Origin: an uncultured Candidatus Actinomarina sp.
Lineage (GTDB): Bacteria; Actinomycetota; Acidimicrobiia; Actinomarinales; Actinomarinaceae
Length of the DNA: 38,209 bases
Assembly (NCBI GenBank): GCA_902627635.1
Contig: CACOKA010000007.1
Coordinates: 1-38,209 of the forward strand
Direction: 5' to 3'
The notes beneath the pieces were generated by a model that saw only the letters and a program-made list of their open reading frames with translations, did not search any database and had not been told where the DNA came from. The translations under genes were made by a program, and so were the position numbers. This document shows, in pieces, positions 30,538-34,213 of this stretch; positions within the stretch are counted from its first letter, which is position 1; the number at the start of each line of letters is the position of its first letter.

Positions 30538-33204
30538 ATGAGTGAAGAAAAACCTTTAAACGTACCTGAATATCTATTGATTAGATCTGCGGAAGCAAGA
30601 GCTAAGCATTTAGGCATTTCTGTTGAGCAAGCTTTAGCCGAAATTAAGGGAGAATCCCAACCAGTAGCTAAAGTTGAAGAGTCTGTTGAAGAGGTAGTTG
30701 AAGAACCCGTAGCTGAAGTTGAAGAGCCTGTGGAAGAGGTAGTTGAAGAACCTGTAGCTGAAGTTGAAGAGGTAGTTGAAGAGGATGTAGAAGAAGTTGT
30801 AGCTGAGGAAGAACCTATTGAAGAACCAGTAGCTGAAGTTGAAGAGTCTGTTGAAGAGGTAAGCATAGAAAACAAAACTGTTGAGTCTATACCAGCCGTA
30901 ACAATTCGTTTTGCCGGTGACTCTGGTGATGGTATGCAATTAGTTGGTACTAGATTTACTGACACTTCTGCATTATTTGGAAATGATCTTGCTACTCTAC
31001 CAGCTTTCCCTGCTGAAATTAGGGCTCCTCAAGGAACAGTTGCAGGTGTATCTTCCTTTCAAGTACAAATTGCTGATTTTGATATTTTGACACCAGGGGA
31101 CGCTCCAGATGTTTTAGTTGCTATGAACCCTGCTGCTTTAAAAGCTCACTTGCAAGATTTAACACCAAACGGAATGTTGATATTGAACGAAGATGCTTTT
31201 GATGAAAAAAATATTAAAAAAGCGGGTTATGAAATAGATCCAAGAGAATCTGAAGAGCTTGATGGTTATAGAATTTTTCAGGTCCCAATGGAAAAACTTA
31301 CTAAGGAAGCTTTAGAGGAATTTGATTTACCAGGAAGAGCGGTCCTTCGTTCCAAAAATATGATTGCTCTTGGTTTAATTTCATGGACATTTAATAGAGA
31401 CCTTAAAGACACTGAAAATTGGATAAATGAAAAATTTAAGAACCTACCTGAGGTTGCAAAAGCAAACATAAAAGCTCTCAAAACTGGCTATAACTTTGGC
31501 ATTACAGTGGAAGCTTTTCACCATACTTATAAAGTAGACAAAGCGTCATTACCAGCTGGTGAATATACGAATATAAATGGAAACATCGGTTTGAGTTGGG
31601 GACTTATCGCAGGTGCTAAAAAAGCAAATCTCGAGCTATTTTACGGCAGTTATCCTATTACTCCTGCATCAGACATATTGCATGAATTATCAAAACACAA
31701 GAACTTCAATGTTTTAACTTTCCAAGCTGAAGATGAAATTGCAGCCGCTGCAGCAGCTGTGGGTGCTTCATTTACAGGCAAGCTTGCAGTTACAGGAACC
31801 AGTGGACCTGGTCTTGCTCTTAAAAGCGAAACGATATCTTTAGCACTGTCTGCAGAATTACCATTAGTAGTAGTGAATGTTCAAAGGGGTGGACCATCAA
31901 CTGGACTACCTACAAAACCAGAACAATCTGATCTAATGTTTGCAATGTATGGACGTCATGGAGAAGCTCCTTTACCAGTAATTGCAGCTAAATCGCCATC
32001 TCATGCTTTTTACGCAGCATTCGAGGCAACACGTATTGCTTTAAAGTACATGACACCCGTTATTTTATTGTCAGATAACTATGTTGCTACCGGTTCTGAG
32101 CCTTGGAAATTACCTGAAATTGATAGCTTGAATGAGTTGGGAACAAATTTAACCACTACATACAACACCGAGAATGGATTTTTACCATTTTTTAGAGATT
32201 TTGAAACTAATGCTCGACCATGGGCTATTCCTGGTACACCAGGTTTAGAGCATCGCGTAGGTGGTCTAGAAAAAGAAGATGGAACTGGAAATGTTTCTTA
32301 TGACACTGATAATCACCAATATATGACAGATATGAGAGCATGGAAAATTGAAAATATAGCAAATGATATTGACCAGCTTGAAATTAATGGAGACACATCT
32401 TCAGATACACTTATTTTGGGTTGGGGGTCAACTTTTGGTGGCATCACACAAGCTGTAAACAGACTTAATTCAAAAGGTATAAAGGTAGCAAGCGCACACT
32501 TCACGCATGTCAATCCTTTCCCAGACAACACAGCTGAAGTTTTGAGTCAATTTAAAAACATAATTGTCCCTGAATTAAACACTGGCCAATTATCAAAACT
32601 TTTACGTGCACGATATCTTGTAGACACTGTTGGAATCAATAAAGTCGAAGGTTTACCTTTTACAGCACAAGAGTTAGAAGAAAAAATCGAATCTCTCATA
32701 AACTCTTTTGGTACAAAACTTGAGCCAGTTGTAGAGGAAGTTGTAGCTGAGGAAGAACCTGTAGTTGAAGAGGTTGTAGAGGAAGTTGTAGCTGAGGAAG
32801 AACCTGTAGTTGAAGAGGTTGGAATACCAGAACACCTCATAATGAGATCTGCTGAAGCACGTGCAAAAGCTTTAGGTATACCTGTTGAGCAAGTTTTAGA
32901 AGAAATGAGTGCAGATAAACCAGCAGCAGAAACCGAGGAGCCTGTTGTTGAAGAAGAGCCTGTTGTTGAAGAAGAGCCTGTCATTGAAGAAGCAAAATCA
33001 GACAAACCTGAAGAACCAGCAGCAGAAACCCAGGAACCTGTTGTTGAAAGAGTTGTTGAAAGGGTTACTGAAAGAGTAACTGAGAGAATTATCGAAAAAG
33101 TTGATGAGACTTTACCTGAGAATAAAGAACTTGTTCAAGATGTTGAAGAAGAAAGAAATAAGGTTGATGAAGAGAAAAAAGAGGAAGTAAAGACTGATGA
33201 GTAA
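30538..33204 (+). CDS. korA: 2-oxoglutarate:ferredoxin oxidoreductase subunit alpha (fused gamma-alpha) with acidic repeat extensions
   Basis: With KorB, oxidatively decarboxylates 2-oxoglutarate to succinyl-CoA and reduces ferredoxin. Core: gamma domain from about 121 (VTIRFAGDSGDGMQLVGTRF), then the alpha domain (ELFYGSYPITPASDILHEL, FQAEDEIAAAAA, TSGPGLALKSE, QRGGPSTGLPTK) to about 728, colinear with mycobacterial KorA. Odd: 888 residues against about 650. Residues 1-120 and 729-888 are acidic Val/Glu/Pro/Ala repeats, and each holds one copy of a 28-residue motif (9-36 and 763-790; core RSAEARAK.LGI.VEQ.L). The last 60 residues (VERVVERVTERVTER) are probably a long charged helix. Function of the tails is unknown. 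It overlaps korB by 8 bases. Confidence 0.95.
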   Translation: MSEEKPLNVPEYLLIRSAEARAKHLGISVEQALAEIKGESQPVAKVEESVEEVVEEPVAEVEEPVEEVVEEPVAEVEEVVEEDVEEVVAEEEPIEEPVAEVEESVEEVSIENKTVESIPAVTIRFAGDSGDGMQLVGTRFTDTSALFGNDLATLPAFPAEIRAPQGTVAGVSSFQVQIADFDILTPGDAPDVLVAMNPAALKAHLQDLTPNGMLILNEDAFDEKNIKKAGYEIDPRESEELDGYRIFQVPMEKLTKEALEEFDLPGRAVLRSKNMIALGLISWTFNRDLKDTENWINEKFKNLPEVAKANIKALKTGYNFGITVEAFHHTYKVDKASLPAGEYTNINGNIGLSWGLIAGAKKANLELFYGSYPITPASDILHELSKHKNFNVLTFQAEDEIAAAAAAVGASFTGKLAVTGTSGPGLALKSETISLALSAELPLVVVNVQRGGPSTGLPTKPEQSDLMFAMYGRHGEAPLPVIAAKSPSHAFYAAFEATRIALKYMTPVILLSDNYVATGSEPWKLPEIDSLNELGTNLTTTYNTENGFLPFFRDFETNARPWAIPGTPGLEHRVGGLEKEDGTGNVSYDTDNHQYMTDMRAWKIENIANDIDQLEINGDTSSDTLILGWGSTFGGITQAVNRLNSKGIKVASAHFTHVNPFPDNTAEVLSQFKNIIVPELNTGQLSKLLRARYLVDTVGINKVEGLPFTAQELEEKIESLINSFGTKLEPVVEEVVAEEEPVVEEVVEEVVAEEEPVVEEVGIPEHLIMRSAEARAKALGIPVEQVLEEMSADKPAAETEEPVVEEEPVVEEEPVIEEAKSDKPEEPAAETQEPVVERVVERVTERVTERIIEKVDETLPENKELVQDVEEERNKVDEEKKEEVKTDE
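30562..30645 (+). repeat. KorA N-terminal copy of 28-residue motif
   Basis: Encodes residues 9-36 of KorA: VPEYLLIRSAEARAKHLG followed by ISVEQALAEI. It matches the C-terminal copy at 19 of 28 residues, but 8 of those 19 use different codons, so the two copies are old and held by selection on protein sequence. Confidence 0.9.
30673..30762 (+). repeat. 45-bp tandem repeat in the KorA N-terminal tail, two copies
   Basis: Two adjacent 45-bp units (30673-30717 and 30718-30762) differ at 3 bases and encode VEESVEEVVEEPVAE and VEEPVEEVVEEPVAE. Degenerate units continue to about 30860. Confidence 0.92.
32728..32817 (+). repeat. Perfect 45-bp tandem repeat in the KorA C-terminal tail
   Basis: Units 32728-32772 and 32773-32817 are identical in all 45 bases and encode VVEEVVAEEEPVVEE twice. 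Perfect identity implies a recent slippage or recombination event. The unit length equals that of the N-terminal repeat. Confidence 0.93.
32824..32907 (+). repeat. KorA C-terminal copy of 28-residue motif
   Basis: Encodes residues 763-790 of KorA: IPEHLIMRSAEARAKALG followed by IPVEQVLEEM. It lies between two acidic repeat blocks, as the N-terminal copy lies in front of one. Confidence 0.9.
32941..32994 (+). repeat. 18-bp tandem repeat PVVEEE, three copies
   Basis: CCTGTTGTTGAAGAAGAG occurs twice in perfect form (32941-32958, 32959-32976) and once with changes (32977-32994). It forms the second acidic block of the KorA C-terminal tail. Confidence 0.88.
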
Positions 33205-34213
33205 AATTCCTCTCTCATATAAAAGAGCTGACTTTGCTAGCGACCAAGAGGTTAAATGGTGCCCTGGGTGCGGCGATTATACAATTCTTGCTTCTGTACA
33301 AAACTTTATGACTGAATTAGGTATCAGAAAAGAAAATATTGTGTTTGTATCTGGCATTGGTTGTGCGGCAAGATTTCCTTATTACATGAACACATACGGT
33401 TTACATTCAATTCATGGTCGTGCTCCTGCAATAGCAACTGGAGTTAGCGCATCTAACCCTGATCTTTCAGTATGGGTAGTATCAGGAGATGGTGACGCCC
33501 TATCTATTGGAGGAAACCACTTGATTCATGCACTAAGAAGAAATGTAAACATGAAGATTTTAATGTTCAATAATCAAATATATGGACTTACCAAAGGACA
33601 GTATTCCCCTACCAGTGAAGAAGGAAAGAAAACAAAATCTTCTCCTTTTGGCTCTGTAGAACTTCCACTAAACCCAATGAGTCTAGCCTTAGGAGCCGAG
33701 GCGTCCTTTGTTGCAAGGTCAATTGATATGGATAGAGATCTTACAGCAGAGGTACTTCGAGCAGCATCTGAACATGAGGGTTCAGCTTATGTTGAGATTT
33801 ATCAAAACTGTAATGTGTTTAATGACAAAGCCTTTGAGCAGCTAACTTCTAAGGAAGGAAAAATAGCAAATCGTATAAATCTAAAACATGGTGAGAAAGT
33901 TATCTTTGGAGCAGAAGATGAAAATGCTGTAACAATTCGTGATGGAGAAGCAGTCATTGTCAAAAGATCTGAAATAGATGATAGTGAGATTTATGTTCAT
34001 GACATTACAAAAGATAATCCTTCAATTGCTTTTTCATTATCAAGATTATCTCATGGACCTTATGGACCAACACCAGTAGGTATCTTTAGAAAAGTTGAAA
34101 GAGACACTTACAATGATGAAGTCAGAGAACAAATTGACTCATCTATTGAACAAAAAGGTGAAGGAGAACTTGATAAGCTTATAAGATCTCTTGGAACCTG
34201 GAACGTAAATTAA
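33197..34213 (+). CDS. korB: 2-oxoglutarate:ferredoxin oxidoreductase subunit beta
   Basis: Thiamine diphosphate-binding subunit of KorAB. Seen: 338 residues; KWCPGCGDYTIL at 20-31; SGIGCAARFPYYMNTYG; the TPP/Mg motif GDGDALSIGGNHLIHALRRN; FNNQIYGLTKGQYSPTS; and PFGSVELPLNP. The cysteines CPGC near the N terminus and a later Cys (YQNCNVF) are the 4Fe-4S ligands expected in this family. The 8-base overlap with korA (ATGAGTAA) indicates coupled translation. KorAB replaces or supplements the 2-oxoglutarate dehydrogenase step of the TCA cycle. Its stop is one base from the convergent PhoU-like gene. Confidence 0.97.
   Translation: MSKIPLSYKRADFASDQEVKWCPGCGDYTILASVQNFMTELGIRKENIVFVSGIGCAARFPYYMNTYGLHSIHGRAPAIATGVSASNPDLSVWVVSGDGDALSIGGNHLIHALRRNVNMKILMFNNQIYGLTKGQYSPTSEEGKKTKSSPFGSVELPLNPMSLALGAEASFVARSIDMDRDLTAEVLRAASEHEGSAYVEIYQNCNVFNDKAFEQLTSKEGKIANRINLKHGEKVIFGAEDENAVTIRDGEAVIVKRSEIDDSEIYVHDITKDNPSIAFSLSRLSHGPYGPTPVGIFRKVERDTYNDEVREQIDSSIEQKGEGELDKLIRSLGTWNVN

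Follow-up and report, generated by a model that had tools for sequence, protein, structure and literature searches.

The fused alpha/gamma subunit (KorA) of 2-oxoglutarate:ferredoxin oxidoreductase (KOR) carries an acidic tail at each end in one clade of Candidatus Actinomarina, a group of very small marine actinobacteria, and each tail of the KorA studied here holds a copy of a small motif that recurs, across the class Acidimicrobiia, on proteins of the respiratory chain. A role in docking or clustering fits this motif best: it is small, near neutral, and conserved, sits on long disordered linkers, is repeated and movable, and is nearly restricted to electron-transfer proteins. On the best reading from sequence comparison, the motif probably serves as a multivalent docking module in the cytoplasm that brings KOR together with the respiratory complexes. 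Linker-borne docking domains of small size are already known in kind. What appears to be new is the motif domain itself, together with its use across the class on respiratory-chain proteins and its transfer to KorA; a search of the open-licence literature found no description of such a domain.

Architecture of KorA and its two motif copies

The window, which is the whole stretch of DNA analysed here, consists of 38,209 nucleotides from an uncultured Candidatus Actinomarina. The korA gene (30538..33204; forward strand, as for all features given below) is an open reading frame with a translated product of 888 aa. The NCBIfam model of the 2-oxoacid:acceptor oxidoreductase alpha subunit, TIGR03710, matches residues 121-717 with 654 bits against a cut-off of 482.75, and the Pfam domains PF01558 (residues 130-318) and PF01855 (residues 359-581) identify a fusion of the gamma and alpha subunits. 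The gene for the thiamine diphosphate-binding beta subunit, korB (33197..34213; PF02775), overlaps the end of korA and scores 255.6 bits with TIGR02177, slightly below the cut-off of 261.9. The substrate of KorAB is probably 2-oxoglutarate, an assignment based on the family and on the annotation of a sister order (PMC12008989). In KorAB of Mycobacterium tuberculosis (Rv2455c/Rv2454c; family TIGR03710), a beta subunit likewise follows a fused alpha/gamma subunit. By the count of the earlier note on this DNA, the M. tuberculosis KorA is about 235 residues shorter than that of the window. In contrast to the mycobacterial enzyme, the KorA described here has tails, a form that occurs in a single clade of Actinomarina.

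The N-terminal tail consists of motif copy N (NVPEYLLIRSAEARAKHLGISVEQALAEIKGES; 30559..30657, residues 8-40; profile match 7.4e-22), a predicted helix-turn-helix hairpin, and an acidic linker of V/E/P/A repeats (30658..30897, residues 41-120) that differs in length among relatives. The catalytic core (30898..32688, residues 121-717), defined by the TIGR03710 match, is kept in 53 of 60 genomes of the class. The C-terminal tail harbors a first acidic linker (32722..32820, residues 729-761), motif copy C (GIPEHLIMRSAEARAKALGIPVEQVLEEMSADK; 32821..32919, residues 762-794; profile match 4.9e-22), a second acidic linker (32920..33033), and a conserved terminal element of VxER repeats (EPVVERVVERVTERVTERIIEKVDE...EEVKTDE; 33034..33201) that is aligned in 7 relatives. 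These coordinates confirm that acidic tails are present at both ends of KorA with one motif copy in each, as the earlier note had described. Glu, Val, Pro, and Ala are abundant in both tails, and the linkers contain 33-45% Glu and 17-39% Val. The net charge of the linkers is about -69 compared with -3, or near neutral, for the two motifs together. The VxER element is a third conserved part of the tails and, across 41 genomes of the genus, is restricted to tailed KorA; 11 of the 41 have a single match each, located on KorA or on fragments of KorA tails at contig ends or frame breaks.

The N and C copies are identical at 19 of 33 residues and at 67 of 99 bases, and the codon is the same at 11 of the 19 identical residues and different at 8. 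This recount agrees with the earlier figures of 19 identical residues and eight differing codons, with the motif now delimited at 33 residues. Within the genome of the window, the N copy shares 23 of 33 residues with the copy on the bc complex compared with 19 of 33 with the C copy, and hence the pair is no simple internal duplication. Duplication inside korA as the source is disfavoured; each KorA copy resembles the bc-complex copy no less than it does the other KorA copy.

Distribution of the motif and its carrier proteins

The first profile of the motif was built from the four copies present in the genome of the window, namely the two on KorA (E-values of about 5e-22 and 7e-22) and those at the start of two unrelated genes, the C-terminal half of cytochrome b (C9) and a membrane cytochrome c (C16), which score 1.5e-21 and 6.7e-20. 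The likeness among the copies is not accidental; as the profile was made from its own four matches, independent support comes from other genomes. Genome-wide counts rest on profile searches, and these detect one to six copies per genome among relatives in the genus. Wider profiles recover the motif in all 42 genus genomes and in 52 of 60 genomes of the class. In a sample of the phylum, 19 of the 25 class genomes contain the motif, compared with marginal matches in 2 of 221 others (G156 and G157), in which a pattern check revealed no clear motif. Named loci assign the motif family to Candidatus Actinomarina and other Acidimicrobiia. The earlier note had proposed recurrence in unrelated proteins as support for a docking module, and such recurrence is strongly evident in the same genome, the genus, and the class. 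Tails lost or scrambled in all close relatives, or a motif limited to korA, would have spoken against the idea; instead, some relatives keep the tails, and conservation of the motif extends well outside korA. Searches of IMG/VR and plasmid collections returned no plasmid match and one small contig of the viral collection (L306, 4 kb), on which Actinomarina oxidase cytochrome genes lie beside phage-like genes, and which is either a chimera or a host fragment.

A total of 87 distinct carriers were sorted into 32 cytochromes c, 29 C-terminal halves of cytochrome b, 6 KorA proteins, 1 protein with two 4Fe-4S clusters, and 19 others. The others comprise 13 members of one polytopic family (366-432 aa), 2 Nfu_N-like proteins, and 4 fragments at contig ends. 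In every carrier, the motif adjoins a long low-complexity linker, and the proposed Acidimicrobiia domain is a sequence shared by non-homologous electron-transfer proteins beside such a linker. Membrane subunits mostly have one N-terminal copy; the number per carrier reaches three or four, with up to four on one cytochrome b subunit. If a genome is assumed to hold ∼1,100 genes with ∼50 respiratory ones, the probability that six carriers drawn at random would all be respiratory is near 7e-9; this figure assumes independent carriers, an assumption that does not fully hold because neighboring cytochromes swap the motif by gene conversion.

The motif is present in 68 of 80 named bc loci, and the gene start is cut or the frame broken in the other 12. 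A gene for a dicluster 4Fe-4S ferredoxin lies directly 5' of the cytochrome b gene in 63 of the 80 Acidimicrobiia bc loci, the remainder being mostly cut off (gene order assessed over L197-L276, e.g. L199:7760-8215). The paired carrier cytochromes c are similar to CcoO and CcoP, and their genes adjoin that of a COX1-family subunit. Neighboring ccoO-like and ccoP-like genes (L199:3849-5610 and other Actinomarina loci) are exactly the same over their first 188 bases. The motif of the two genes is identical at 99 of 99 bases within a genome at seven loci, and the sequences differ between loci, indicating gene conversion of the cytochrome c gene starts.

The polytopic carrier (e.g. L065:2563-3684 and its orthologues) is about 370-430 aa long, has an N-terminal motif, and matches no Pfam family. 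Its gene adjoins COX1, COX3, or CtaG genes of the aa3 oxidase in most loci checked, but not at L158 or L160. The protein with two 4Fe-4S clusters is NuoI, encoded within a nuo operon; of 42 genus genomes, only G011 has such a NuoI with a motif and acidic linker fused to its N-terminus (L051:4259-5038). The Nfu_N-like proteins (L173:3475-3924 and L165:7051-7983), from two genomes of another family, terminate in a shorter version of the motif, VPxHLLERSRAARxR.

Wherever a carrier has both a membrane span and a cytochrome c domain, the order is motif, linker, span, and haem domain, which would place the motif on the cytoplasmic side. The N-terminus of subunit IV, the C-terminal half of cytochrome b, lies on the same (n) side by the established topology of b6f. 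With the exception of the polytopic protein, the known topologies of the host families, KorA and NuoI among them, thus suggest that the motif copies are cytoplasmic.

Proposed docking, a possible assembly role, and the origin of the KorA tails

In the proposed mechanism, the motif would act as a docking domain, small, helical, and mobile, that only Acidimicrobiia have. Long disordered linkers rich in A, P, and E would attach it to the ends that face the cytoplasm in bc subunit IV, oxidase cytochromes c, the membrane protein of the aa3 operon and, in one genome, NuoI. One clade of Candidatus Actinomarina would have placed two domain copies of the bc-complex type on KorA. The domains may bind one another or one common partner, so that flexible multivalent tethers would hold KOR and the membrane complexes together and reduced ferredoxin from 2-oxoglutarate would be kept near its respiratory oxidant. 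The ferredoxin encoded directly before cytochrome b in the bc operon is a plausible electron carrier. The sequences show directly that the domain is shared, where it occurs, in which operons it lies, and that the motifs are under selection on drifting linkers; we infer the binding itself, the identity of the partner, a benefit from electron channelling, and the cytoplasmic side.

The entry of KOR electrons into the redox pools of aerobic actinobacteria has been left open, with a membrane-associated partner suggested (PMC2773412). If KorA and the respiratory complexes bear a common tag, this would offer a direct, testable answer to the question. The earlier suggestion that the tails are docking modules gains support from recurrence in unrelated proteins, and its likely target changes. 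As the other carriers are respiratory-chain proteins, the respiratory chain is the likely tethered partner, in place of KorB or a user of succinyl-CoA, two of the candidates named before. A wider version of the docking reading is put forward tentatively, in which one cytoplasmic tag might gather most of the respiratory chain of Acidimicrobiia, namely complex I, the bc complex, and two oxidases, into a multivalent assembly, and the Actinomarina clade might have recruited KorA to form a metabolon of KOR, ferredoxin, and the respiratory chain. Such a tag looks like a general organiser of respiration across one bacterial class, is absent from Pfam, and is sufficiently modular that it could tether enzymes and membrane complexes.

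Several observations count against docking. KorA is without tails in most Actinomarina and in every other member of the Acidimicrobiia sampled, and hence tethering is not needed for KOR function. NuoI bears the motif in a single genome of the genus, and binding of an assembly factor would give the same carriers. 

Mycobacterial CIII2CIV2 complexes are known from structures with direct contacts between subunits. In contrast, a separate tag occurs here on the bc complex, on oxidases and NuoI, and on KorA, a soluble enzyme of the citric acid cycle. The actinobacterial CIII2CIV2 supercomplex (e.g. PMC8523172) joins the bc complex and an oxidase.

A rather doubtful alternative, the strongest of those considered, is that the motif is an assembly or sorting tag bound by a chaperone or assembly factor that takes subunits to sites of respiratory biogenesis with no stable tether, and that KorA borrowed the tag for maturation or placement at these sites. 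Much the same carrier set would result; most carriers need cofactor insertion, the Nfu_N-like relative of iron-sulphur scaffolds ends in the short motif form in two genomes, and a single N-terminal copy is usual in membrane subunits. KorA, however, is devoid of membrane domains, and maturation of other KorA proteins does not require the motif. The two KorA copies on long linkers and the four on one cytochrome b also suit valency, as expected of docking, better than one-time delivery.

Tailed KorA is found in 11 of 41 Candidatus Actinomarina genomes, all in one clade; 25 genomes of the genus encode KorA of 616-631 aa without tails, and all KorA loci examined in other families of the class are likewise without tails. 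In a tree of the KorA core, nine tailed rows form one clade with support of 98/98, and a single gain of the tails is the simplest history. Automatic labels on the tree gave three changes because the tails of G003, G007, and G309 are interrupted by contig ends or a frame break; these tails were added by hand. At the G309 locus (L277), a frame change, from assembly error or decay, breaks the KorA C tail ahead of the C motif. In genome G011, a C-type copy sits in the N tail of KorA and the C tail is without a copy. The first N copy of G011 lies at the end of a different contig and would join this KorA; retention of two copies at a new place fits a tethered module.

Linker lengths in KorA vary even among close relatives, with the motifs and the VxER helix conserved. 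The C motif of G000 compared with that of G036 has 13 synonymous and 3 nonsynonymous codon changes. In 32 Actinomarina genes for subunit IV, mean identity is 88% in the motif compared with 90% in the cytochrome b domain, the nonsynonymous/synonymous ratio of codon differences is 0.34 compared with 0.26, and the linker ranges from 45 to 124 residues. Purifying selection on the motifs while linkers drift upholds the earlier view that the copies are old and selected as protein. It is unlikely, then, that the tails are functionless products of neutral growth, in which recombination and slippage copied the start and linker of bc subunit IV onto korA. This explanation agrees with repetitive linkers whose lengths change freely, with gene conversion that homogenises neighboring cytochrome c starts and so shows that the module moves between genes, and with the lack of KorA tails in most members of the genus. 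Against it, both KorA motifs and the VxER element are conserved, most of their changes being synonymous, in a genome streamlined to roughly 1 Mb, and the motif of bc subunit IV is kept across the class.

Fold of the motif and comparison with known domains

The AlphaFold2 model of KorA residues 1-49, obtained from 43 rows, predicts helices at residues 11-25 and 29-40, with a pLDDT for motif N of 90-95 over residues 11-30 and 81 over residues 31-40. At the start of a subunit IV with two copies, the first copy is modelled as two helices and the second as three (pLDDT 92-95). Packing of motif on motif is not predicted in this tandem model, in which a pTM of 0.39 accompanies no confident contact. 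A Pfam search with 43 motif sequences assigned no family, and Foldseek searches of the PDB with the KorA motif and the tandem model returned no significant match.

Foldseek places VapB, Arc, and CopG among the top neighbors of the KorA motif, and 1 of the 43 motif sequences touches FitA-like_RHH at an E-value of 0.036, as might be expected of a dimerisation or DNA-binding fold of the ribbon-helix-helix type. Such a fold is nonetheless very improbable, as all these matches are insignificant (best Foldseek E-value 2.0), the long form of the motif has a helix at the position of the strand, and the carriers are not DNA-binding proteins.

The earlier note had also likened the tails to the linker and peripheral-subunit-binding domain of E2 chains, which are alike in layout, a small helical domain with an Ala/Pro/Glu linker, and related in the 2-oxo acid oxidation step. 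A true domain of this type is hardly credible: E3_binding matches none of the 43 motif sequences at E-values up to 10, its fold is absent from the best 50 of 92 PDB Foldseek matches of the KorA motif, a query whose small size limits power, as well as from those of the tandem model, and the carriers are respiratory proteins rather than lipoyl enzymes. The likeness as kinship is therefore unsupported; in contrast to the E2 domain, the motif has no match in sequence or fold, occurs on respiratory subunits in up to four copies, and is located at either end of a protein.

In cohesin-dockerin and sticker-spacer proteins, small repeated helical units on disordered spacers are common to many enzymes. 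The docking module would resemble these systems in kind, but the motif appears unrelated to them in sequence and no dedicated scaffold protein built from it was found. PDB sequence matches with E-values of about 3e-4 to designed toroids and TAL repeats were rejected; they match ∼ten residues many times over, and thus show only that GISVEELL-like stretches start helices.
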